NCBI GenBank assembly: GCA_029204225.1
Contig: CM055102.1
Span: 27,754,922 to 27,818,921 of the forward strand
Source of the DNA: Diphasiastrum complanatum
Lineage: Eukaryota > Streptophyta > Lycopodiopsida > Lycopodiales > Lycopodiaceae
Direction: 5' to 3'
DNA: 64,000 bases
A program made the translations under genes and the position numbers. A model generated the notes under the pieces. It ran no database searches and was not told the origin of the DNA. It was given only the letters and a program-made list of their open reading frames with translations. Positions within the stretch are counted from its first letter, which is position 1, and every line of letters begins with the position of its first letter. Shown here one piece after another: positions 23,958 to 60,123 of the stretch.

Positions 23958-24634
23958 CATGTAGTCTTCTCCAACCAACCAACCTTTTGCCATCTTGACC
24001 ATGAGTGAACAATCCACTATCATCATAGAATCCTTTGAGTTGATCAAGAGATGTGAGATCCTACCTTGGATCTTCCCAAGAACCACGCTTTTGCCCTCTC
24101 CTCCACAAGACTCCCTCTTAATGATTGCATCATAAGAAGTAGAAACCTCTTGAATATTAGAAGCCATGAAAACTTAACATTAGTACCTTCAACATAAGGA
24201 TGATTGAAGACTCTCTTTTTTCAAACAAGAACTTCTACTCAATGATTTAGGTAATGACTCATATGATAATGATTCTCCCTCACTATCATTCACAGTGAAT
24301 CACTCAAAGTACATCCTATTTAGAACACTTTACATACTTCTCTTCCTCTTGACTTGTGACTATCTCTCTCACCGAGTCTCATGATAGAACCATTTGATCT
24401 ATTCTCTTTATGAACACATGTGACACCACTTATTGCACAAATGACTTTCTTGGAATCATAACAAAGAAATGTAGAAGAACTGACTCCTTCGTGAAATTGA
24501 AGATCCATAAAAATTGAACAATGTAATTTTTTATTTTGTCATATATTTTTTTGTATACATCAAACCACTTTTTCTATGATCTTTTCTATGAGTCACTTTT
24601 TCTATGAGACCCTTTCTTTTAATAATCTCCATTT
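23958..24634. other. No gene recognised; possible decayed minus-strand coding
   Basis: Minus-strand frames 24167-23960 and 24508-24320 have balanced composition but no motif I can name. The first runs into the inverted LTR. Around 24511-24634 the DNA resembles 25208-25318 (GAACAATGTAATT-TATT-TGTCATA), so the duplication of the gene end to the right extends into it. Confidence 0.4.
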
Positions 24635-24748
24635 TTATGGTGGAGGACACAGTATAATTGCAACTGGATATGAATTTTCGATAACAAGCTTAATTGTCTC
24701 ATGCCAAAAATGCATTATCTCCATTGGGGAGATCTTCGGACACTTGAA
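24635..24748 (-). pseudogene. Duplicate of the last exon of the H3-fusion gene
   Basis: The minus strand encodes a 37-residue stretch starting FKCPKISPMEIMHFW and ending at a TAA. It aligns with the terminal exon at 25474-25319 (FKCPKVSPMEIMYFW) over about 35 residues before diverging. An AG acceptor precedes both at the same point. The surrounding introns and exons are not duplicated recognisably, so this is a partial copy. Confidence 0.65.
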
Positions 24749-24769
24749 CTCCAGTGACCATTGCAATCA

Positions 24770-24843
24770 GATATCAAATCGATGCGCGCCCTTGTTGAAG
24801 TGCCTCCTACTAAAGTCATCCTCGCGCGCTTTTCCAATATCGG
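24770..24843. repeat. Palindromic motif, copy a
   Basis: ATATCAAATCGATGCGCGC at the left faces GCGCGCTTTTCCAATATCGG at the right, with a 35-bp centre containing CTTGTTGAAG. Arms and centre match copy g at 28159-28233 closely. It lies just upstream (minus strand) of the duplicated exon. Confidence 0.7.
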
Positions 24844-25318
24844 CTTTATTTTTTGTCTTCATTGCCTTGGCCCGTATTGTCCTTGTCTTGGCATATTTGG
24901 ATATGTTTAGAAAATGATTTGAGTGAAGCTTTGCCACAACAAATCTGAGTGAACTTATGCCGCATGTTTGGATTGGTTGTGACAAAAGTTCATTTAGATC
25001 ATCTTCTGAACTTATCCAAAAAAAACCATGGTAAAAGCAAGGCAGACCAAGGCTATGAAAAACAAATGTTTGATCATGAAGACGAGCTTTATGTCACTTA
25101 GAACATGAAATAAGAACCTCAAATGCAAACATGTTGGAATAACAATCAATATTGAAGATCTCAATTGGAGAGATCTTCTATCACATCCATCGAAATGGAA
25201 GAACATAGTATTTGAACAATGTAATTCTGTATTATGTCATAAAATATCATGTACACATCTTGATTGATAATATATGAACCACTCAACTTGAGTATCATTA
25301 TTCAAGTTGAGAGTCATT

Positions 25319-27459
25319 CTATTCTATGATCTCTAAATCCATTTGTCCAGTTGGAAGTAATCTCGGTGGAGAACACTCAACAATTGAAACAAGATATGAA
25401 TTTTCGATCACAAGTTTTATTGTCTCTTGCCAAAAATACATTATCTCCATTGGGGAGACCTTCGGGCATTTGAACTGAAAAAACAAAAACAAAAACACAA
25501 GTACATGTTGTTAATCAAAGATAAGTTATTAGGATTTAGTAATATATGAATGTTATTGTTAACTAATAGATTATGTCTAGCAGATTCGGAAGCTTATCTT
25601 GTTGTGCAAGCCAATTGAAAAAAATTTGGCATTGAATATCGTACCACAACTAACATAATCAACCTGCTGGGAGGACTGCAGTATTCAAATATATACGAAA
25701 GTTAGTAACAAAAATTTTCTTTATGAAATATCGGATCAATGTGCATGAGATGATCTTAAAGTCTACAAAGGCAACAGGCACATGCGTCGAAATGATATCA
25801 AGAAAAATATCGATGGAATATCGGATCAGCGCGCACGATATGCTCTTGGTAATCTACAAACACTAAAAGCGTGCGTCGAACCGATATTAAAAAATTCTTA
25901 CCTTTGCATCAACCATTTTGAGCTTCGTATAGGCTATTGCACCTGGTATTGGAAAGAGTTCCATTATTTTCTTGATATGGCTCCTCGCTATTTTGTGGGT
26001 GTGTATAATAGAGTTCATCTTTAGACAAATTGGATTACACACGCCCTCATCATTGACATATAAGGGTAGCACATATAAGCTTCAATAATCACTGCAATTG
26101 GAAAACAATATGTTTATGAGAATATATATATAATCACAATTCATATGAAAAAACTATGATATTAATAGAAACTGAAAAGTAACTTACTTGGTTATGTATG
26201 GGAGAACGAGTATTGGAGTCCCCAGTTTGACGTATTGAAGCATATCAGTGTGCAGACTTTTAAAATCAGGGAAGTCAAAAGTAGCCATGAATTGTAAGGG
26301 AAACAATGCGACATCTATAAACAATGGGGTCTGAAAAAACTCCATCCAATATTGAACCCCCCCCGCCTTCCTACATTATCTCCTAACATGTTATTCCTAC
26401 TTTTTAATTTACCTGTATCTAATTTACTAAGGGGAAGACCCATATTAGTCTTCGACATCTGAAAACTGTATCTAGGACCTAGACCTTTAAGATAAGTATT
26501 TAGCAATTGGTCATACTGTACATATTGAGGAGAATCTACAAAAGAAAGTGCAGGGGGGGCAGAAAGTAATATAGATAAACCATGGAATGAATTGTCATTT
26601 AAAATTGATTTGACTTTTAAATTTGCAAAATTATCTAACTCTTCTCCTGATGCTCTCGGGGGTGAACTAAAATGGGGGGAAGTAGGAGGAGATTGAGATT
26701 TACGAGATTTAGGTGATTTAGGAGACTGAGATTTAGGAGATTTAGGAGGTGAAATTTTTTTCGAAGGAGAAAGAGACTGATTTCTAGGAGGAGATGAAAT
26801 TTTAAGAGGAGAAGAAGACTGATTTCTAGGAGGAGAGGGAATTTTCAAAGGAGAGGAAATTCTAGGAGGAGAAGAAGAATGATTTCTAGGATGAGAGGGG
26901 ATTTTAGGATCTTCGGCTTTTTTAGGAGGTCCATAGACCTCATCTTTTTTGAAACACTCCCGCTTTGAACCCGAAATACAAGCCAAGAGGGTTGAAATTG
27001 CTTTTTTTTTTTTTTTTTCTTTGCAACTTCTTTTGGAGGAGAGGATGGAGCTGGTGTAAAGTATTCAGCAAATTTGTCATACATGTCCCGTAGCCTGAAC
27101 ACAAGGTTGAAATCCTTCGGCATGATGGTCACCCTCTTGGCATGGACAACTACAACTAAAATATTTAAAAAAAAATTCACTTGAAAATCCTCATACGTAG
27201 TGTGTAGAGCTTCAACTGCCGTTACTGTCCACCTCACATCTGCAGAGAGTTCTCTTGTTACTTGTTTGATGGATATCTGTATGTGAGCTTTCAGAATCAG
27301 AAGATTATTGGTCTTCTGAAGCTTCCGTATATCCTTCAGCCATGGCAGGTCTCTTGGTCTTCCCCTTGGCCTAGGAGGTGGTGGTGGTGGATTTCTCTGT
27401 CCCCCTTGAATAGGGATACCTCCAGGATGGATGCGTGCAGTTTGCCTTGCGCGTGCCAT
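25319..27459 (-). CDS. Histone-H3-like protein fused to a Ser-Pro-Lys-rich region and a multi-exon unknown domain
   Basis: ATG at 27459. Residues 1-14 keep the H3 tail pattern (ARxxQTARxxxGG), but positions 4 and 9 are Arg and Ile, not Lys. After a Pro/Arg-rich spacer, residues 40-125 align with the canonical H3 core (alphaN to alpha3) with no gap, about 40% identical by hand, ending HAKRVTIMPKD. An A17 run (plus-strand T17 at 27002-27018) encodes a Lys tract and shifts the frame. The other frame, open to about 26390, has repeated SPP/SPK motifs like linker-histone tails. Three later exons, 26330-26188, 26079-25902 and 25474-25319, read in one frame to a TAG across consensus sites (AA|GTAAGT, AAG|GTAAGA, TTTTTTCAG|). 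How the Ser-Pro exon joins the exon at 26330 is unclear: the best donor (CAG|GTAAAT, about 26416) gives the wrong phase. It may be a pseudogene, or the A17 length may be wrong. The C-terminal domain is unknown to me. Confidence 0.6.
25727..25888. repeat. Palindromic motif, copies b and c (tandem, in an intron)
   Basis: Copy b (25727-25799) and copy c (25817-25888) both start AATATCGGATCA and end with a GTCGAA-GATAT type arm, the imperfect reverse complement of the start. The centres share CTACAAA. Both lie in the predicted intron between exons 26079-25902 and 25474-25319. Confidence 0.75.
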
Positions 27460-27466
27460 TAGGACC

Positions 27467-27538
27467 CAATATTGGATCAACGCGGGCATATAGTAGTCAC
27501 AGAATCACAAAGCAAGTCGAATGCGTCGAACCGTGTTG
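27467..27538. repeat. Palindromic motif, copy d, just upstream of the H3-like start codon
   Basis: AATATTGGATCAACGCGGGC at the left and TGCGTCGAACCGTGTTGG at the right match the arms of copies b and c. On the minus strand it covers positions -8 to -79 relative to the ATG at 27459, i.e. the presumed 5' leader. Confidence 0.65.
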
Positions 27539-27667
27539 GGAATGGAAGTCTGGATAGCAAATGCACGCTCGGGAGTCTGGGAGGGAAACTGTGCAGTTTT
27601 CTCAGGCGCATTGAATCGATACCGCATATGAAACTGAAAGCAAAAAAATTTAAGCATCTTGCAATTG

Positions 27668-27677
27668 ATTATATAGT
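27668..27677 (-). promoter_or_regulatory. Candidate TATA box for the H3-like gene
   Basis: Minus strand CTATATAATC, about 210 bases upstream of the ATG at 27459. Position and sequence fit a plant core promoter; there is no other support. Confidence 0.35.
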
Positions 27678-27950
27678 GCCAAAATCCCTAATGATTTTCG
27701 TGGTGGTGGTTGCGAATATCGATGCATGATTAACTGAGATCAATAATTTCGAAATCTTCTATAATGTTCAAAATCAAATCATTAATAAATGTCCTCGATC
27801 ATCACATATTAGTGATCGATAAAGCTAATTATGAGGGTAATCATGAACTTGTATGAGACTGCTACAACAATTAAAAGACATTTAATTGACACTGACTACA
27901 ATTGATTTTAGAAAACAATAACTTCAAAAAAATTTGTTCAGCCCAATAGC

Positions 27951-28056
27951 AAATCGACGCGCGCCAAACAACTGGAAAATGGTTGGTCTTCTATCGTGTG
28001 CGCTGATCCGATATCAGAATTGCCCTAGTTGAAGAGTCCTCCAGTGAAGTTATTGG
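27951..28056. repeat. Palindromic motif, copy f, with partial second unit
   Basis: AATCGACGCGCGCC faces GTGTGCGCTGATCCGATATC across 32 bases. From the right arm the sequence continues CCTAGTTGAAGAG-CCTCCAGTGAAG, matching the centre of copies a and g, so two units overlap here. Confidence 0.6.
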
Positions 28057-28062
28057 ACAACA

Positions 28063-28151
28063 TTGTGAATCATCAAATCTTGCTTCGGAAGTATCTTTGT
28101 AGCTTTGGTTTGTATTTTGAATCTAGTAAAGCAAGCTTTGATGATTCACAA
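28063..28151. repeat. 23-bp inverted repeat (hairpin) between the divergent genes
   Basis: 28063-28085 and 28129-28151 are reverse complements with one mismatch (core TTGTGAATCATCAAA), separated by 43 bases. It lies between palindromic motifs f and g. Confidence 0.85.
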
Positions 28152-28158
28152 TAACGTG

Positions 28159-28233
28159 CAATATCGGTTCAACTCGTGTCCTTGTTGAGGCGCTCCCCAG
28201 TTCAGTGACTCTCGCGCGCCTAATCAATATCGG
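28159..28233. repeat. Palindromic motif, copy g
   Basis: ATATCGGTTCAACTCGTG, then CCTTGTTGAGG, then CTCGCGCGCCTAATCAATATCGG. The order and spacing are the same as in copy a at 24770-24843, 3.4 kb away. Confidence 0.7.
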
Positions 28234-28623
28234 CGGAATAATCCGTCTTTTGAATCCGTTCTGAATGAACAATTGCGCAAATTTTTTTTGTTATCTTGTT
28301 TGTGCTTAAATAGGACGAGGGAGAGACCAAGATACTCCTTCAACATAGAATAATGCGACATCTGGTAGTTCATCATCCACTTCAGTATTAACTGGTGCTA
28401 TGACCCTCGTGAACGTTTTATGGCTTTCAATTATGGCTACTGATTACGGCTAATGAATATTTGGCTAATAATATTAAAAAATGATCGGACAGGCCTATGA
28501 TTATTTGAACATGCTAATGATAGACTTTTTATGGTATTGCGGTGCAGGTACAAGGGTGTATATCTCTGATTGGTGGATAGATGATTAGTGGACAGATGTA
28601 TGGTTGTGATTAACAGAAAAGGG

Positions 28624-28632
28624 CTATAAATA
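28624..28632 (+). promoter_or_regulatory. Candidate TATA box for the plus-strand ORF
   Basis: CTATAAATA matches the plant TATA consensus. It lies 94 bases upstream of the ATG at 28726, which would leave a short leader containing part of palindromic motif h. Confidence 0.5.
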
Positions 28633-28712
28633 TGGGCACCACCTGATTTACTGAGATTCCGTGATTTTTTTTTCATAAATCCATTGTTATTTTGTTTTTT
28701 GGCCTTCTCTCG

Positions 28713-28790
28713 TAATATCGAATTGATGTGCATCTTCATTTTTTGTCCACTTATTTCCTATTCTTACACGCTGATGCGGTATCCGATGCA
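28713..28790. repeat. Palindromic motif, copy h (diverged)
   Basis: AATATCGAATTGATGTGCATC resembles the left arm of copy b (AATATCGGATCAATGTGCAT). A CGCTGATGCGGTATCCGAT segment about 45 bases on resembles a right arm. It overlaps the start of the plus-strand ORF, as copy d sits at the start of the minus-strand gene. Confidence 0.45.
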
Positions 28791-29307
28791 ATATCTGTCT
28801 CTTCTTAAAACAAACTTTTGGATTTTTTTGAATTCTAGTGATATTCCATCAGAGAAACTAGAGTATTTTTCAAGTATTTTTTTTGCACCTTTTGATATCA
28901 ATAAACTAGTTCATGAGAATCGTTATAATTTACTTGCTCTTCTTGATATTTTTTCTCAGATTATTAGTACGCCTGTTAAAGATATAGGTAGTTTTTGTTT
29001 TCTTCATTTTCATGACCTTGTACATTTCCAACCATCCTCTAAATACAAACATTATAGAAAGTACGCAATCCTGCATGCAAATTTTAAGAGAAATATATAT
29101 TGTGATATTCACAAAAGAAAATGTCGTTTCCTAATCAAAGGTATGGCGTTTGTCTTTTATATATATGTTGAAATTCCAGATGATGAGTTTGTTAAATCTT
29201 CTGTTGTTCCCATGATTGAAGCATCTGCATCTGCTCCAGATGATGTAGATGAAGTAGATACTGATATAGGGGTTGAATCTGAAGCTTCTATGGCTTCAGA
29301 TTATTAG
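28726..29307 (+). CDS. Unknown 193-residue protein with acidic C-terminus
   Basis: I do not recognise it. The ATG at 28726 is the first in frame after a TATA box at 28624. The N-terminal ~20 residues are hydrophobic (MCIFIFCPLISYS). A central stretch is basic and aromatic (KYKHYRKYAILHANFKR, then CDIHKRKCRFLIKG). The last ~35 residues are acidic and Ser/Ala-rich (PDDVDEVDTDIG). Codon use is strongly A+T-biased. It is transcribed away from the H3-like gene across a 1.2-kb upstream region that carries palindromic motifs. A viral-like or element-encoded protein, an exon of a larger spliced gene, or chance are all possible; the length, the TATA box and the non-random composition favour a real coding region. 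Confidence 0.45.
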   Translation: MCIFIFCPLISYSYTLMRYPMQYLSLLKTNFWIFLNSSDIPSEKLEYFSSIFFAPFDINKLVHENRYNLLALLDIFSQIISTPVKDIGSFCFLHFHDLVHFQPSSKYKHYRKYAILHANFKRNIYCDIHKRKCRFLIKGMAFVFYIYVEIPDDEFVKSSVVPMIEASASAPDDVDEVDTDIGVESEASMASDY

Positions 29308-32701: not shown

Positions 32702-35349
32702 GCTCCTCCTCGAAAAAGCACCATCTCGGCAAGATAAAGACAAGGCCCCCCTCGAATCTCCAGCCCATGATGTTCCTGCATACTTTAAGGACTATACAAT
32801 CGAGGATGTCACAATCAAATTACCCCAAGCTCAACGTGAGCCCACTGGTAATTCACCCTACGAAGGCCCTGCACAAACCATAACCCTTTCCCTGAGTGAG
32901 CCAAATGAAACCAACAAATATCTTGTCCACGTCGGAGCTCATCTCAATCACGAACAACAAAGACGACTTGAAAAGCTCCTGTGAAAATATCGACATATCT
33001 TTGCCTGGACCTATAAAGACATGAAAGACATCTCACCCCAAGTAGCTGTGCATCGTATCCCGCATAAACCGGGTGCGAGGCCCATTGTGAGTCATCCATA
33101 CAGATGCAATCCCATCTATAAGGCCAAGATCAAAGAAGAATTACAACGCCTCTTAGATGCGAGATTTATCTATGAAATTGAGCATACTGAGTGGGTCTCC
33201 CCAATTGTTATCGTCCCCAAGAAAAATGGAAAACTTCGGATTTGTGTCGATTTTAAGAAATTTAACGCCATCACTGAACGTGATCATTTTCCATTACCTT
33301 TCGGAGAATCCATCTTAGAAAATCTAGCAGGAGATGAGGCTTACTCCTTCTTAGATGGCTTTAGCGGATATAATATGATCCAAATCTCTGAAGAGGATCA
33401 ACACAAAGTCGCCTTTGCCACAAAATGGGGAACCTTCTGCTGGAAAGTCATGCCTTTTGGTCTCTGCAATGCTCCTAGCACCTTCCAACGTGTTATGCAA
33501 GCGGCCTTTTCTCAGCAGATGGGCGATACCTTAGAAGTTTACTTGGACGATTTAGGAGCACATTCCGAAGAAATACGTCATCTGTCTGTGCTTGAAATTT
33601 TTTTTATCCAATGTCAACGCTTCGGTATCTCTCTTAATCTTGAAAAATGCCAGATTTGGATAACCCATGGTATTGTATTAGGACATATTATCTCACGAAA
33701 TGGCATTGCCACTGACCCTGAAAAGATCCTCATCATTCAAAATCTATCGGAACCGCGTACGATACGTGAAGTTTACTCCTTCCTTGGCCACACCAACTAC
33801 TATCGGTGCTTTCTTTTCAATTTCGCTAACAAAGCACGCTTAATCTACAAAGTAGTTGTAGTTCCCAAATGGACGGATGAACAACGCATCGCCTTTAATC
33901 AACTCAAAGAAGCCCTTACCAATGCACCCATCCTCCGGGCTCCTGATTATTCTAAAGAATTCCATGTGCATACCGATGCATCCAAGTATGCCATTGGAGC
34001 AGTGCTCACCCAACCAGGAGAATTCAAAAAAGGACTACCCAATTTGTTTTCTTAGTCGACAATTGATATCTGCCGAAGTCAATTATACCACTACTGAATG
34101 CAAAGCCTTGGCAATGGTATATGCGGTTCAAATGTTTTGCCATTATCTTCTAGGAAAAGTCTTTGCGTTCTTCACTGATCATCAAGCATTGTTGTATCTC
34201 ATCAACAAGACCTGCACCATTAGCTGTATTACTAGATGGATCCTATTATTGAGAGAATTTGAGTTTAGGATCGTGGTTCGTAAGGGAGTTCAGCATTTTT
34301 TAGCAGACCATCTATCCCGAATTCCTAACCTTCCTACCCCTGATCAAGGCGTCAACGATGATTTACCAGATGCAATCCTTTTCCAAGTTGACTCTACACC
34401 TGTATGGGCTAAGGAAATTAAAGAATATTTAACTTTAGGGCAGATGGATCCTTCCTTCTCCAAACCTGAACAACGTGCGTTGGTCCTCAAAACTAAACCT
34501 TATACGTCAATTGTAGGACAACTCTACAAGCAAGGGTTAGATGGAATTATCCGACGATGTCTTACTGAAGGAGAAATACCCTCTGTAATTTCTCTCACTC
34601 ATAAAGGTATTGGTCTTCTGAAACAACTGTTAAGAAAATCCTCTTAGCCGATTTTTGGTGGCCAACACTCTTCAAGAATACGCACAATTACACTAAAGCT
34701 TGTGATGTCTGCCAACGCACAAAACGCTTTCAAAAAATAGACTACATGCCTTTACACCCCATAACCACTGATCAAGCTTTCCAGAAATGGGAAATTGATT
34801 ATGTCGGACCTATTAGTCCTGCTGCTCGACACACACAATCTCGTTACATCATAGTAGCTACGGACTACTGCACCAAATGGGCCGAAGCAAGAGCTGTTCG
34901 CAATGCTGACGCTCGTTCTACCGCCAAATTTCTCTATGAACAGGTTATAATTCGATTCGGATGTCCTCTAGAGCTTATCAGTGATAGGGGTACACATTTT
35001 CTTAACTCTGTCATAGCAGATCTTCTTTCCAAATTTTTTGTGGTACATCGCAAAAGTTTCCCATACTATCCACGCTGCAATGGCCAGGCAGAATCCACCA
35101 ATAAAATCCTCTGTGAAATTCTCACCAAAACCGTCAAATCCAGCTGATCTGATTGGGAACTCAAACTCCATGCTGCTCTCTGGGCTTATCGCACCACCCC
35201 GAAGCGAGCCACAGGCTTAACCCTTTTCCAGCTCACATATGGCCAAGAAGCCGTTATGCCTGTGGAATTCCATATCCCCTCCCTTCAAGTAGCCTATAAC
35301 CTTGAGCTCCATACTCCTCAGACTCTAGCAAACAATCATGATCTATCTT
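32702..35349 (+). pseudogene. Ty3/gypsy pol (non-chromovirus, Athila/Tat-like): RT, RNase H, integrase
   Basis: The frame from about 32702 leads into RT (SPIVIVPKKNGKLRICVDF, then FGLCNAPSTFQRVM and the catalytic YLDD at about 33538). RNase H follows (HVHTDASKYAIGAVL; FTDHQALLYL; ADHLSR). The integrase has its zinc region (CDVCQRTKR) and D...D...E motifs (WEIDYVGPI, ISDRGTHF, NGQAESTNK). No chromodomain follows, and the DMKDI...H-IP RT start and ADHLSR resemble the Athila/Tat group. Breaks: TGA about 32982, a frame change near 34040, a frame change with stop near 34645, and TGA about 35144. No LTR or protease is seen. After the integrase the frame closes near 35349, overlapping the next ORF. 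Confidence 0.92.
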
Positions 35350-36510
35350 AAGAATTACGCCGAGCAGCTCACACTGGCCCAGGATATCCTCACCAACCTT
35401 GGATTTGATCTAACACTTTTTCGGGACCAGCAGAGCGAGAGCCTCATCCGAGCAGCCTACTCGACCTATTCGGATGAGTTCCAAATTTTCCGGATTACAT
35501 CCAAGAGTGGCAGCTATTCTATTATCAACATCTCTCCTGGGGATCTTCATAGCGTCGGCTTTCCTAATCTCGGAGAGACAATCCATGGAAAGGGCACCAG
35601 CTATGATGCCAAGTACTTCACAAAGTTTCTGACAGACGATGGCAAAACCATTGCCCAAACCAACGACGGGATCACTATCCGCCTCATCACGGATCCCCAT
35701 TTACGGGCCGCCTCAAAGATCCTCGTCACCATGGTCGTAGTACATACCACCAAGATGGATCGCATCCCACCGAGCGATCTCTTTTCTTTGACCCTCATCA
35801 TGGACGACCCCACTCAAAATTATAAGTGGGCTAAGAAGGTAGCGGAGAAGCTGTGCGGAGCTCTGAAAGCCCGCAAATCAACTACCAAATGTGGGTATCT
35901 CCTCCACATGTTGGTCACCAAACAATTGGGATCTAGGGCGGCTGCTGCCATCAAGGAGCTGGATGATGTTTATCCAAGCACAAAAAAACGAACCACCCCC
36001 CAACCGACAGTGGAACCAGTCTCACCAGCCCCACCTACTAAGAAGCAGAAAGGGAAGGCGGTCAGCACAGAAGCTGATGTTCCACATGACATTCTATCCA
36101 ACGACATCGGGGTGGAATATGCTGAATCTGGAGGGAGCCTTAAACCATCTCAGGTCCCAAAGGAGGTCCTTGGGCAGCAGACGGCCTTACTTCACCAGGC
36201 CCAACAACGCCGACAAGCAGTAGCAGCAGCAACAGGCAGCTCCGGACCGGTAAGCACTTTCGGATCTGATGCTATGGGCGTGATTCCATCCACACGGGAA
36301 ATCTCCTCTCCATCACTTGCTCTCACACTCCCACCACCACCCCCACCATTTACTGCCTCCTCCACACCCTCACTAACTCTCAACATGGGCTTCACTTCCA
36401 CACTTCCACAAAAGCCCTCCCCTGTACAAATCTCCACCCTACTTGACTCCATAGTCAACGTAGATGATTTAACAATCACATCCACCTGTCTTTCATACAC
36501 CTCCGTCTAG
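35338..36510 (+). CDS. Extra ORF after gypsy integrase (390 residues, unknown family)
   Basis: The ATG at 35338 overlaps the end of pol by about a dozen bases. Residues 1-210 look like a folded domain (IRAAYSTYSDEFQIFRITS, then LRAASKILVTMVVVHTTKM) similar in style to the 'putative plant transposon protein' regions of Athila/Tat elements; that is an impression, not a match I can prove. Residues 215-390 are low-complexity: Pro/Lys-rich (PTKKQKGKA), Gln/Ala-rich, then Pro/Ser-rich. After a frame change near 36490 the DNA still encodes a Gln-rich probable coiled coil (KAGLEEENKQQQLQIQ) to a TAG about 36716. The position, 3' of integrase, is where Athila elements carry an env-like ORF. It is more intact than the pol next to it. 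Confidence 0.55.
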   Translation: MIYLKNYAEQLTLAQDILTNLGFDLTLFRDQQSESLIRAAYSTYSDEFQIFRITSKSGSYSIINISPGDLHSVGFPNLGETIHGKGTSYDAKYFTKFLTDDGKTIAQTNDGITIRLITDPHLRAASKILVTMVVVHTTKMDRIPPSDLFSLTLIMDDPTQNYKWAKKVAEKLCGALKARKSTTKCGYLLHMLVTKQLGSRAAAAIKELDDVYPSTKKRTTPQPTVEPVSPAPPTKKQKGKAVSTEADVPHDILSNDIGVEYAESGGSLKPSQVPKEVLGQQTALLHQAQQRRQAVAAATGSSGPVSTFGSDAMGVIPSTREISSPSLALTLPPPPPPFTASSTPSLTLNMGFTSTLPQKPSPVQISTLLDSIVNVDDLTITSTCLSYTSV

Positions 36511-46519: not shown

Positions 46520-48416
46520 CTACAACACTTCGGAATACACAATATTTTGAGTGCACCTCGCCACTCCTGCCACATCTGTAAATCGACCGTCAGTATCAGT
46601 AATCAACACTCGTACACTTCCTGCATTTCGCACTCTCGATAATGCAACATACAGCTAACCATGACTGAATACGGGACGTGGCAAGTACAATCCAATAGTC
46701 TCCATAGTCTGCCCTTGCGCCTTGTTTATTGTCATGGCAAAAGCTGTTCTAATAGGAAATTGTACTCGTTGTAATTCAAACGGCAAGTCTGAAGCGCTCG
46801 GCACTAAAGGAATTTGTGGAATGAGGACTCTACTCCCAATATTCCTGCCAATAACTATCTCTGCGTCTAAGACTTGTCTACCCAATCTACGAATGATGTG
46901 TCTTGTACCATTGCACAATCCTTTGTGCGATGCGATAGACCGCAACAACATCACTATCATGCCAACCTTCAACACCAATCTATGTGGAGGACATCCACTC
47001 GGTTGCAAGCTGTTCAAAAACTCTACTGGGTACACATCAGAGTCATCACGCTCAACCACGCTATCAGCACTATAAAATGTGCAAGCATCACCAGCAAGTT
47101 GCTCAACAACTTTCGAATTGATCTCATCCACGTTTTCGTTCAACGAAGTCAATATTGCACGGCTTCTTAAAAAATCAACATCCATGTAACGTCGTGCAAT
47201 ATCGAGAAAAGTGAACGAAATCAATTCACACAAATCTCGTGTCCTTAGACACATACACTCTGGCAAAGAAATCAAATCCAAACCACGCAGCACAAATGTG
47301 GGCTCACGACCATCTCCAATACTCAACAAATACTCTACGAACCTTGACTGCTCGTTCCTATCGGCTCTCTCCAACCCATAACACGCATGTTCATTGACAA
47401 TTTGTGCACTTCCATATATTTCCACAAACGCGAACACTTCAGTGAAGCGCTCACAATCTATGCACAACTGCCCCGTTGTACCACCGGGAGCACCTGACGG
47501 AAATCACCACCAAAAACGATCGGAATCCCTCCAAATGGAGTATCAATACTCAATATGTCCCGTAGAGACCGATCCACACACTCAATGGCATACTTATGTA
47601 CCATGGGAGCCTCATCCCAAATAATAAGTCGACATGCCATCAAAAGCTTACCGAACAGAGACTGTTTCAAAATGTTGCAGGTCGAGCTTTCATTCAATTC
47701 CGTCGGGGGAATCCTAAATCTAGAGTGCGCGGTCCTACCACTTTTCATTAACAATGCAGCGATCCCCGATGATGCAACTGCCAGTGCTATCCAACCTTGT
47801 GCACGCACGTATGATAGCATGACACTATAGAGAAACGTCTTACACTTACCACTCGGACCATCTACAAAGAACACTCCACCCACTCTTCGTACCACATGCT
47901 CACGTACTACACGGTCAAAAATCACACATTGATCTACATTCAATCTCTCGATGTCAGCCTCTACCTCTAGAAGGGTCTCATCGAGAAATATTTGCTCGCT
48001 AAATAGTAAAGAAAACTCGACATCGCTATTGGGAAGTGTAAAGCCAAAATTTGTCAACGACTTTCCCGATTCCTGCATGTGCGTCTCCACGTCTAGAAGA
48101 GCCATGTCTACCAAAATCTGACTCACAGTAACGGTCTCGCACGTTACTGGCTGTCCTAACTCCTCCGCATAATCCTCTACTAAATGGGGCTCTATACTCG
48201 TCCAAAGATCTAATGGGTCAGAAAGGGCACATGTCAAAAGAAGTACAGCGAACATGAGCCGAAGTTGTGATGGATCCCCCATGACACTGCCTCCAGCAGG
48301 CAATTACTCCATTCCATCGCATTGTTGACGAGAAGTCTATGATTGGAAGCATCTTTGAACGACAAAAACAACTCACCGTCGACTGTGCGCAAGTCCTCAA
48401 AACTTTTTGCACAAAA
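46520..48416 (-). pseudogene. Helitron PIF1-family helicase fragment
   Basis: The minus strand carries the C-terminal helicase of a plant Helitron. In order: SFEDLRTVDGELF; a P-loop reading GPSGKCKTFLY, where the usual G-GK[TS] is altered; Walker B IIWDEAPM; FGGDFRQVLPVV; IVSASL; IGDGREPTF; VGMIVMLLRSI; FAMTINKAQGQT; and LYVALSRVR. It ends at a TAG complement at 46520. Breaks: a frame change in a G-run near 48275, an in-frame TAG at 47458 and another at 46655 (both where CAG is expected), and a frame change near 47345. The Rep endonuclease (HUH) domain that starts rolling-circle transposition is absent; the fragment begins abruptly at about 48416. Helitron ends (TC...CTRR) were not found. Confidence 0.93.
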
Positions 48417-53917: not shown

Positions 53918-54044
53918 TAGCTACTACTAACTAGTTTAGTTGATGTTTTAGTTGTTTTAGTCTATTTTTGTGAGTTTTAGGTGGTTTGGAGGGTAGTTTA
54001 GAATTGATTTGCTTGTTCTTGTGTGTTGATTTGTTTGAAGCTAG

Positions 54045-54726
54045 TGTTAAAAATTCACAATTCTAGCTTGACTAGTTTTGGTCATATGACTTGTAAATAG
54101 TTAGATGGTCATGATGTGGCTTGTCACACGTGCCAAATAGCATAGGATTCCATTCATAAGGATGTTCTCAAGTAGACCTAAGTATTAGAACCTTTGGAAT
54201 GAGTCCAAATTATGCTTAGATACAAGGGAGAAAAAATAGGAGCTATTTTTGGTAATTTTTGCATTGTTGAGGGATCTCCAAGATTCCAACCCTAACTTGG
54301 TAGGGATGAAAGATCCACCAAAATTAGCATTAGGGATAGGTTTAGGGCTACTCATACCTTCCCAAACCCGTGATGGATCATGTATATATAGGTGATGATA
54401 TCTCACCAAAATCAATCAAGCAATTTCATGTTTTTTCTCTCATAATAGTGCAATTGCTCTCTATGTTTATAATTGTTTGAGTACTTGTGATTACTAATGA
54501 TTATAGGATTGAATGTAGGTCTGGTGTACAGTACTCAGACTGTGGGAGGCCGTACTTTCACACGTGTGAAGCCTTCTTCAAGGATTTGGGCCATTTAGTG
54601 AGGTTCAAGCATAGATTTTTGATGGATTTTGATGGTTCAACTTGCGCTAATCTTATGAAATCATAACCTATTGTTTCCCTCATCATTTCAAGTGTTTTAG
54701 GATCCTTATTTGCTGTAATTTTTACA
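54045..54726 (+). repeat. 5' LTR of the young copia element
   Basis: TGTTAAAAATTCAC...TAATTTTTACA. A TATATATA box at 54383-54390 is a likely promoter. ACACGTGTGAAG near 54560 recurs in other copia LTRs of the window and in the leader at 38520. Confidence 0.95.
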
Positions 54727-55537: not shown

Positions 55538-58500
55538 ATGGCATCTATAAATGCATATCTTTTGGATACTAATGAAAGGCTCAACAAAACTAACTATTCC
55601 GTATGGAAAGTTAGAATGAAATCTATCATGATTATGCAAGATCTGATGGAAATTGTAAATGTTAATGAGGGTGAACCTATTCATCCTCAAGAAAAAGCCA
55701 AATACATCAAGAGGTGCAATGTTGCACTACATTGCATAAAAATGAATGTTGCAAATGAACTCTTAAGAGAGGTAGGAGATTGCACTTCAGCTCAAGATGC
55801 TTGGGAGACTTTGCAAAAGGTCTATGAATCCAAGAACCAAACTAGAATGTTAGCTTTGAAGAATCAAATCTATAGAAGCTATCAAAAGAAAGGAGAGAGT
55901 GCACATACTTTTGTCCTAAGAGTAAAGGAATTGAACAAAGAGCTAGCCTTTATAGGTGACCCTATCAAGGATGAAGAGCTTCTTCAACTCATATTGAATG
56001 GACTAAGCTTTGAATTTGACAATTTGGTTCAGGGATATGCAATTATGGGTAAGCTACCCATACTTGAAGAACTCCAAGGCACACTCATGGCCGAGGAATC
56101 AAGAAGGAGCCAAATGAAAGAGAGGATGGATAGGCTTTCCATCCAAGGTGGAGATGACCAAGCTCTCTTCACCAAAGGCAAAGGCAAGTCCAAAGGCAAA
56201 GGATCAACATTCAAGAAGTCTACAAAGCTTGAGGATCAAGAAGGACCCTCAAAGGCATCTCCATCAACCACCAAAGTCAAGAAGGACAAATCAAAGGTGA
56301 AGTGCTACTATTGTAGCAAGATGGGGCATTATGCCTCGGAATGCTTTAAGAGGAAGCAAGATCAAAGCCAAGCCAACATGAGCAAAGAGGAGGAGGAGGA
56401 GAGTTCACATGAGGACTCTCTCATGATGTCCATATTTTCTTCAACAAGCTTCAAAGGAGAAGATCCTTGGTGGATTGACTCGGGTGCTAGTTCACACATG
56501 ACTAGTAAAGAGGAGTTTTTCTCTTATCTCTTATCTTATGATGGACCTATAAATTCTATCTATACAGCAAATGATGAAGCTTGTAAGATTGAAGGAGTTG
56601 GTAGCATTCCCCTTTGCTTAGGATCTTCCAAAAAGATCAACATAGAATGTTGACTTTGTTTCAAATGAATGTTTCATCAAGAAGAAGGGTAAGATAGTGG
56701 CTAAGGGCACTAGACTTGGCAAACTTTATAAGTTGGATGCATTTGTGGATACTAATGTTGTCATGTTGGCCGAGAAGAGCAAGATATCTACCTTTACTTT
56801 ATGGCACAAAAGACTTGGACATGTCAACTCGGGTTCCATGGAGGCTATGATCAAGGAGGAGTATGCTTTAGGCCTACCAAGGTCTATTGGGAAGGAAGAC
56901 AAGGTTTGTGAAGCTTGTGCCTTATCCAAGGCACATAAGAAGGTGTTTCCTAACTCCATCACAAAGTCATCTCATCCTCTTGAACTCATACACTCGGATG
57001 TGCACATTGCTAGCACCAAATCTAATGGAGGCTCATCCATGTTTTTAACCTTCATTGATGACTACTCAAGATATTGTTGGGTGTTCTTACTTTCCTTCAA
57101 GTCTCAAGTATTTGATACTTTCGTAAAGTTCAAGTTGTTTGTGGAAAAGCATCATAATCATAGCATCAAGATTCTTAAAAGTGACAATGGTGGAGAATTC
57201 ATCTCCAATGAGTTCAAGGCCTTTTGTGAGGAGGAAGGGATCAAGAAAGAGACTTCTTGTCCTTACACTCCTCAACAAAATGGAGTTGCTGAAAGAAGGA
57301 ATAGAACATTATGTGAATGTTCTAAGGCTTTAAGACTAGATGCTTGTTTGCCCAAATCCTTTTGGGGTGAGTCTCTTGTATGTGCAAACTACTTGATGAA
57401 TAGGGTGTCTTGCAAAGCAATTGAAGGCAAAACTCCTTATGAGATGCTGTATGGAAAGAAGCCCAATCTTAATCACTTGAAAGTTTTTGGGTGTATATGT
57501 TATGTGCATGTGCCATTGGAAACAAGAACCAAGGAGGATCCATCTTCCACAAGAGGGATCATGCTTGGATATGCAAGCTCAAGCAAGGGCTACAAAGTCT
57601 ATCTCCCATCCTTGAACAAATTTGTTGTTTCAAGGGATGTCATCTTTGATGAACATCATATGCATATGCTTGAAGAAGGCTCGAGTGCTCCAACAATCAA
57701 GAAGAAGATGGCCGAGGAGCAAGATCTTGGTTTTGAGGAGGAGCTCATGGAGGAGCAAGCACCAAACCCACCTATCACACCAAGGAGATCTTCAAGGGCA
57801 AAAGTGGAGCCATCAAGGCTCATATATCAAGGCAAAGGACAGCAAGTTGAGGGTATCTCATCCACTTCTTATGCTTTATCTAGTTTTGAAGAACCATCTA
57901 ATGTTGAAGATGCATTGAACTCCAAAGAATGGTATAAAGCTATGTTGGATGAGTATGATGCCTTGATTGAGAATGAAACTTGGTTGCTTATTGAGAGACC
58001 TCAAAGGAATGTAATAGGATGCAAGTGGGTCTTCAAGCTTAAGTTGAATGCAAATGGGAGTGTTAACAAACATAAAGCAAGATTAGTTGCAAAAGGTTAT
58101 GCTCAAGAGAGAGGGATAGACTATGAGGAAACTTTTGCACCCGTGGCCAAGATGGTCACAATAAGGCTAATCATTGCACTTGCATCACATTTTGGATGGA
58201 TTCTATGTCAAATGGATGTCTCTAATGCTTTCTTGAATGGTTTTTTGGAAGAGGATATCTATATGGAGCAGCCACAAGGGTTCATCAAGCATGGAATGGA
58301 GAACAAAGTATGCCATCTCCAAAGAAGCATCTATGGCTTGAAGCAAGCCTCGAGATCTTGGAATTCAAGACTACATTGCTATCTTATTTCACTTTCTTTT
58401 GTTCAAAGTGAATATGATCCCACTCTTTACATTAAGTTTGATGATGTTGGTATTGTACTTTTACTCATTTATGTAGATGACATCATCATTAGTGGAAATA

Positions 58501-59427
58501 GTGTTGATGGTATTGAAAAAATCAAGATAGATCTATCCTTAGAATTCAAGATGGTAGATCTAGGGTGTCTTCACTTCATCTTAGGCATAGAAGTACTTAG
58601 AGGGTCTGATTTTATCTTTATAAGTCAAGTAAACTATGCTCAAAGTCTTTTGAAGAAGTTTAAGATGGAAGTATGCAAAAGTGTTGACACACCAATGGAG
58701 CAAGATGTAAAAGTGCCAAATGAAGATGATGAAAGTTCCTTCATGGACATCACTTTGTTTAGGCAACTTATAGGTTCCTTAATGTGAATCACTATAACTA
58801 GACCAGATCTTAGCTTTAGTGTATGTAGGTTGAGCCAATCCATGCAAAAGCCATTGAATATCCATTGGAAAAAGGCTAAGAGGATTCTAAGATACATCTC
58901 GGGTACATTAGATTTTGGGATTCTATATAGAGGAGATGTGATTAACCTTCATGAATTTAGTGATTCAGATTTTGCAGGGGACAAGAGGGATAGGAAATCA
59001 ACAAGTGCCTATTCAACTTTCATAGGAGAAGGTGTGGTTTCATGGCTTTCAAAAAAGCAAGAAACTATATCTCTATCTTCAACCGAGGCCGAGTACAAAG
59101 CTTTGACAACCACTACAAAGGAGGTACTTTGGATCAAGAGATTATTGGTGGAACTAAAGATCAGAGGATGCACCAATCATCTACAATGACAATATATCAG
59201 CCCAACACCTTGCATCTAACCCAATCTTCCATGCAAGATCTAAGCACATTGAGATATGCCATCACTTTGTGAGAGAAATGGTGCAAGCCAAGGAGATTGC
59301 TTTGGAGCATGTTCCAAGCAATGAATGTGTAGCTGATCTACTTACTAAACCACTTCAAAAGACACCTTTTATGAATTTCAGATCATCACTTGGAGTGATT
59401 AGTAAAGCAATGATTGAACCAAGCTAG
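55538..59427 (+). pseudogene. Gag-pol polyprotein of the young copia element (three lesions)
   Basis: Gag from ATG 55538 (KTNYSVWKVRMKS), zinc knuckle CYYCSKMGHYASEC, protease WWIDSGASSHMT. A deletion of about 71 bp at 56649, seen against the copy at 4138-4208, shifts the frame. The next frame, 56697-58787, is open for 696 codons: integrase zinc region, D (LIHSDVHIAS), D (LKSDNGGEF), E (NGVAERRNR), then RT with DVSNAFLNGFLEED and catalytic YVDDIIISG. An in-frame TGA at 58785 breaks RT. RNase H follows (SDSDFAGDKRDRKS; SSTEAEYKAL) to a frame change near 59160, after which ADLLTKPL leads to the natural TAG at 59425. All domains are present, but the protein cannot be made whole. Confidence 0.96.
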
Positions 59428-59441
59428 ATAGTGAGGAGGAG

Positions 59442-60123
59442 TGTTAAAAATTCACAATTCTAGCTTGACTAGTTTTGGTCATATGACTTGTAAATAGTTA
59501 GATGGTCATGATGTGGCTTGTCACACGTGCCAAATAGCATAGGATTCCATTCATAAGGATGTTCTCAAGTAGACCTAAGTATTAGAACCTTTGGAATGAG
59601 TCCAAATTATGCTTAGATACAAGGGAGAAAAAATTGGAGCTATTTTTGGTAATTTTTGCATTGTTGAGGGATCTCCAAGATTCCAACCCTAACTTGGTAG
59701 GGATGAAAGATCCACCAAAATTAGCATTAGGGATAGGTTTAGGGCTACTCATACCTGCCCAAAACCGTGATGGATCATGTATATATAGGTGATGATATCT
59801 CACCAAAATCAATCAAGCAATTTAATGTTTTTTCTCTCATAATGGTGCAATTGCTCTCTATGTTCATAATTGTTTGAGTACTTGTGATTACTAATGATTA
59901 TAGGATTGAATGTAGGTCTGGTGTACAGTACTCAGACTGTGGGAGGCTGTACTTTCACACGTGTGAAGCCTTCTTCAAGGATTTGGGCCATTTAATGAGG
60001 TTCAAGCATAGATTTTTGATGGATTTTGATGGTTCAACTTGCGCTAATCTTATGAAATCATAATCTATTGTTTCCCTCATCATTTCAAGTGTTTTAGGAT
60101 CCTTATTTGCTGTAATTTTTACA
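59442..60123 (+). repeat. 3' LTR of the young copia element
   Basis: 682 bp, same ends as the 5' LTR, about nine substitutions and no length change. The TATATATA box is preserved. Confidence 0.95.

Follow-up and report, generated by a model that had tools for sequence, protein, structure and literature searches.

The minus-strand frame that holds the ATG at position 27459 of the 64-kb window (the whole stretch of DNA that was analysed) is, judging by its translation, the coding sequence of a genuine and very divergent histone H3. The explanation that we prefer, held with as much doubt as confidence, is that this frame belongs to a lineage-specific, fast-evolving H3 variant gene, whose product would join the H3 fold to a linker rich in SPx(K/R) motifs and to a C-terminal region without an assigned family. 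Few proteins are as conserved as H3, whose tail lysines bear central chromatin marks.

The H3 fold and the N-tail

The translation of this frame starts MARARQTARIHPGG. The Pfam core histone profile PF00125, by which the sequence-only reading had proposed to check its claim of a divergent H3, matched the frame above threshold (E 2.2e-15, 57.4 bits, cut-off 26.4). A sequence search against the PDB returned 173 distinct sequences at E <= 0.001, with solved H3 chains at about 1e-15, and the names of the best 60 of these 173 are all H3 or H3 variants. Because of these Pfam and PDB E-values, chance similarity to H3 is excluded. The CENP-S profile stayed below its cut-off on the same frame (18.5 against 28 bits), while NCBIfam gave two matches to the H3 ORF, both far below cut-off, and none to the tail ORF. 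AlphaFold2 models made without an alignment had pLDDT values of 46.9 and 52.9, too poor for testing the fold, and a Foldseek search with a low-pLDDT model of this alignment-free kind found nothing in the PDB at E <= 0.001. Within the 64-kb window, no second copy of the H3 ORF or of the tail ORF was found (best other tblastn E 0.26).

From alphaN to alpha3 the alignment with H3 is gapless and includes an intact HAKRVTIMPKD, as had been claimed from the letters alone. Identity to plant H3.1 is 34 of 88 over H3 residues 44-131; over residues 40-125 it is 31 of 86, against an earlier hand estimate of about 34 of 86. In this 88-residue core, which has no stop, gap or intron, 28 of the 31 hydrophobic H3 positions are still hydrophobic.

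The first 41 residues of the protein contain no Lys, 8 Arg and 11 Pro. Arg at position 4 and Ile at position 9 of the tail, both noted earlier, are present in the translation, as is the replacement by Val of the core cysteine before HAKR (Cys110). Kept H3 positions include R52, K56, K64, R83, H113, A114, K115, R116, V117, T118, D123, L126 and R129, and changed ones include R49K, R63L, R69I, R72K, K79S, D106N, L109V, C110V and I130L. The kept H113, A114, R116, D123, L126 and R129 are residues that we take to form the H3-H3' bundle, and R52, K56, K64, R83 and K115-T118, also kept, presumably contact DNA; the contacts of R63, R69, D106, L109 and C110 are presumably lost. The PRGRPR of the N-tail, spotted by eye, resembles what we take to be an AT-hook core. 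The Pfam AT_hook profile gave no match at E <= 10 in the full read-through, a search in which the HMMER filters drop weak short matches.

Neutral decay was simulated from a hand-typed H3.1 protein, back-translated with random synonymous codons, under AT-biased mutation with transitions favoured, using substitutions only and no indels, to an end point of 34 of 88 residues left, at about 136 substitutions in 264 nt. Among 10,000 simulated decays, 189 were stop-free, 65 attained the BLOSUM62 score of the real core (155) and 125 retained at least the observed number of hydrophobic positions (28 of 31), and none did all three together. The corresponding counts in a first simulation of 2,000 decays were 46, 18 and 28; the observed number of positive substitutions (51) was reached by 247 of the 2,000, a measure that alone is not unusual. 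Neutral decay, which the sequence-only reading had named as speaking against its claim, thus fits the core poorly. As judged from the sequence, the H3 core most likely diverged while still a working protein, under protein-level constraint, a conclusion that assumes canonical H3 ancestry and one mutation model and is silent on the present-day state.

Reading frames of the putative gene and rival readings

Three minus-strand frames follow one another (Table 1), namely the H3 frame (open 27504-26845), an SP-rich frame (27064-26315) and a last frame (26375-26184). After the fold, the H3 frame has one SSPP, then a Lys run, then a stretch rich in Leu and Ile, and its stop is at 26845. It had been claimed that this frame continues into a Lys run and SPP/SPK repeats; the Lys run and one SSPP are indeed there, but the repeats lie in the second frame. 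The apparent coding block, first given as 26390..27459, runs on to about 26188.

The SP-rich ORF contains 8 SPx(K/R) and 3 SPK motifs, all in another frame than the histone fold, and its residues 31-115 are 74% S, P, K or R. Tandem repeat arrays at 26687-26905 lie inside this frame, and the repeats keep it open. A frame of 249 codons was unmatched in 5,000 first-order Markov sequences (longest 207), a control that leaves tandem repeats aside. According to PMC8113232, SPKK motifs bind the minor groove of A/T-rich DNA and mark the C-tail of plant H2A.W. For the C-terminal region, neither Pfam (E <= 10) nor the PDB (E <= 5) gave a match, and Pfam also had none on the third frame. The codon-preference profile was weak: the SP stretch was near zero or slightly negative, and over the N-tail a stop-containing frame outscored the H3 frame. 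This profile was given no weight; one of its six training stretches, 46658-48303, crossed two ORFs in different frames.

Table 1. Features of the putative H3 variant gene and of its immediate surroundings
Feature	Position	Strand	Basis
N-tail, 41 residues from ATG, ARARQTAR start, PRGRPRD end before alphaN	27337..27459	-	translation
H3 histone fold (H3 residues 44-131)	27088..27351	-	Pfam, PDB, gapless alignment
A17 run (sense strand), likely first frame break	27002..27018	-	inside overlap of H3 and SP-rich frames
Second frame, 249 stop-free codons, SP-rich stretch and C-terminal region	26315..27064	-	ORF map, repeats, motifs
G8 run (sense strand), likely second frame break	26357..26364	-	inside overlap of second and third frames
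Third frame (about 62 codons), protein-like, putative last part of the gene	26188..26375	-	ORF map
Possible 96-nt intron, GTAAGT...TTGCAG	26092..26187	-	motifs only
TATATAA, about 210 nt before the ATG, possible TATA box	27669..27675	-	consensus only
Palindromic unit (imperfect, about 78 bp, arms of 20 nt), close upstream of ATG	27464..27541	.	repeat searches
Further clear palindromic units	24766-24844, 25723-25800, 25813-25889, 27941-28018, 28156-28234	.	nhmmer
Weak seventh palindromic unit	27554-27626	.	nhmmer E 0.015

Since the SP repeats are in another frame than H3, the two can be joined only by splicing or by an indel, of which the A17 run is a possible site. We infer from the sequence that one gene spans all three frames and that each break reflects a small change in length, for which the A17 and G8 runs are the simplest sites; the first is located no closer than the overlap 26845-27064 and the second no closer than 26315-26375. 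Assembly error and recent gene death would each account for the breaks, and splicing may join the frames at either of them. At the possible intron, an in-frame TGA follows the TTGCAG acceptor; a later AG, found by eye, would leave the frame 25887-26081 open.

It is possible, though doubtful, that the locus is a relic, namely a divergent H3 variant that was functional during its divergence and is now dead, with both frame breaks real. The two breaks in the assembled copy, the further in-frame TGA and surroundings rich in transposons point in this direction, and the decay simulation is silent on the present state. On the other hand, the 88-residue core is free of stops and gaps, and each break is compatible with a position in a long homopolymer, the usual kind of site for sequencing errors. 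A relic would be the record of a past H3 variant, with a branch longer than those of four centromeric H3s in a small tree.

Improbable is an accidental neighbourhood with no fusion at all, in which a divergent or retrocopied H3 ORF, with the A17 run as its old poly(A) tail, lies beside an unrelated SP-rich gene. This would agree with the intronless H3 core, with the position of the A17 run on the sense strand directly after the H3 part and with the different frames of H3 and SP repeats, but the H3 ORF has no stop before the A run, no obvious start was seen for a separate SP frame, and no target-site duplication was found (the 34 nt that follow the A run have no word of at least 8 bases in common with 27440-28300).

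Descent from a CENH3 or a CENH3 paralogue, minus the longer loop 1 and plus the tail, is very improbable and was set aside: the RWT, EDF, KDF and RL residues are in common, a local alignment is identical at 35/83 positions to Arabidopsis CENH3 against 34/84 to H3.1, and the top identity in a 9-row tree is to rice CENH3 (39% over 93 columns), but loop 1 has the H3 length, the alignment with Arabidopsis CENH3 has a lower score than that with H3.1 (151 against 162) and requires a gap of 2 residues in loop 1, the N-tail starts as in canonical H3, no centromeric name occurs among the best 60 of the 173 PDB matches, and the tree position has no support. In this 9-row tree, built on a short alignment with hand-typed CENH3 and other reference sequences, the end branch was 2.43 changes per column against 0.19 to 0.55 for the four centromeric H3s, and the nearest row was plant H3.3 by path and rice CENH3 by identity. 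The N-tail is divergent, as is equally true of divergent H3s other than CENH3. PMC8603533 attributes the centromere targeting of CENH3 to loop 1 and alpha2 and describes its N-tails as widely divergent.

Surroundings of the putative gene in the window

The proposal that the gene is possibly element-encoded found no support in viral-contig scans and in LTR and TIR searches, which are weak tests. Viral-contig scans with the H3-like ORF, canonical H3, the tail ORF and the neighbouring plus-strand ORF confirmed no relative; for H3 they had little power, because the canonical H3 query also matched none. No LTR-like pair bracketing the gene was found in the window. The search for TIRs with target-site duplications, run with no shuffled control, yielded 31 candidates, all weak, in which no duplication exceeded 3 bp. 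One 23-nt inverted pair (25818-25840 and 27992-28014) brackets the gene, and was not taken as a transposon end because its arms are those of the palindromic units described below.

The window contains ORFs for copia-type gag and pol, a Ty3-type reverse transcriptase, a chromodomain and a PIF1 helicase (PIF1/Helitron-type). Judging by its retroelements, the window probably comes from a land plant. Direct repeats at 54043-54726 and 59440-60123 (684 bp, 98.7% identical) flank copia-type ORFs at 55538-56650 and 56697-58784 and are probably the LTRs of a young insertion. The PIF1-type helicase is encoded on the minus strand (46655-48303) by two overlapping ORFs and probably comes from a Helitron. 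A plus-strand ORF of 390 residues at 35338-36507, after the Ty3-type ORFs, had no Pfam match at E <= 1e-5. Divergent to the H3 gene lies another plus-strand ORF (28684-29307, 207 aa from TTG), with TATAAATA at 28625-28632; it had no Pfam match, and no viral relative in the viral-contig scan.

The arms of the palindromic units (Table 1) resemble ATATCGGTTCAACGCGCACG, and clear copies occur in the window only around the H3 gene. With nhmmer the six clear units had E-values of 1.6e-14 to 3.9e-11, which are biased since the same units built the profile, and elsewhere in the window no further unit was better than E 0.3. When up to 7 mismatches are allowed, the window has 20 matches to the arm and three shuffles have 11, 16 and 7, but 14 of the 20 fall at 24771-28763; a degenerate arm at no more than 3 mismatches gave 4 matches, against none in 100 shuffles. 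A reading of the units as RNA was rejected: the Rfam matches (E 0.11 and 0.58) are far below the gathering score and neither is on a unit. RNA folding of the 7 palindromic units gave a z below -2 for 1 of them.

A locally duplicated block was also observed (24493-24750 and 25192-25476). Its 112-bp part (24639-24750 and 25365-25476) is 86% identical, with one frame open in both copies, and the mismatches at codon positions 1, 2 and 3 number 6, 2 and 8, which is suggestive only. The block is possibly exon-like.

Proposed explanation and comparison with known histones

As an H3 variant gene, the locus would encode a product of about 420 residues, with a Lys-free, Arg/Pro-rich N-tail, the H3 fold, the SPx(K/R) linker and the C-terminal region. 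The core would pair with H4 and enter nucleosomes, because the H3-H3' bundle residues and several DNA contacts are kept. The N-tail could not bear the usual lysine marks, and the SP-rich linker would grip A/T-rich linker DNA in the minor groove, like the SPKK tails of H2A.W and H1. Nucleosomes of this kind would be compacted and resistant to marking, and would occur at particular sites or in certain cells. The earlier suggestion of a specialised chromatin protein is supported in part, by the H3 fold, the signs of past constraint and the SPx(K/R) and SPK motifs; the fusion depends on the proposed joining of frames. If functional, an H3 free of tail lysines and with a long DNA-binding C-terminal extension would reveal the extent to which a nucleosomal H3 can diverge, and would let chromatin that lacks tail marks be studied in a natural setting.

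We consider it rather unlikely that the protein is a functional macroH2A-like H3, with its Lys-free N-tail, an AT-hook-like PRGRPR, an SPx(K/R) linker and a new C-terminal domain. The PRGRPR would then sit where H3 threads between the DNA gyres, and the nucleosomes would be unmarkable by the H3 tail code and would clamp A/T-rich linker DNA.

None of the literature titles listed in searches describes an H3 with both an SP-repeat tail and a C-terminal domain, which falls short of proving that no such report exists. With canonical plant H3.1 and H3.3 the preferred H3 variant shares the gapless histone fold, HAKRVTIMPKD and the ARxxQTAR start; it differs in its core identity of 34/88, its Lys-free first 41 residues and its putative C-terminal extension, and on the first two of these it was not classed with them. 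Like CENH3/CENP-A, it is a fast-evolving H3 with a divergent N-tail and has the RWT and KDF residues, but it lacks the longer loop 1, and its SP-rich material is C-terminal. MacroH2A consists of a core histone, a linker and a large non-histone region. The variant would share this architecture, but it has an H3 rather than an H2A fold and no macro domain (Pfam, C-terminal part, E <= 10); with no Pfam domain of any kind in that part at this threshold, it was not assigned to macroH2A.

H3s of dinoflagellates without K9 and with extended sequence have already been described, and the H3 of Alexandrium monilatum has 167 residues and a C-terminal extension (PMC4751559). The missing K9 and, if the frames are joined, the extended sequence are common to these H3s and the present one, and their earlier description lowers the novelty here; the extension in Alexandrium monilatum is much shorter, and the lineage is a different one if the window comes from a land plant.

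Plant H2A.W is a core histone with SPKK-type C-terminal motifs, as described in PMC8113232 and PMC3380720, an arrangement that the present variant would share if its frames are joined. H2A.W is, however, an H2A with a short tail; the present sequence has an H3 fold, and its tail would have many more such motifs and an additional region. An H2A.W-type assignment was rejected for want of an H2A fold, the best 60 of the 173 PDB matches being all H3. The generative-cell H3 variants of Lilium, to judge from their description in PMC3380720, are comparable as strongly divergent plant H3s.
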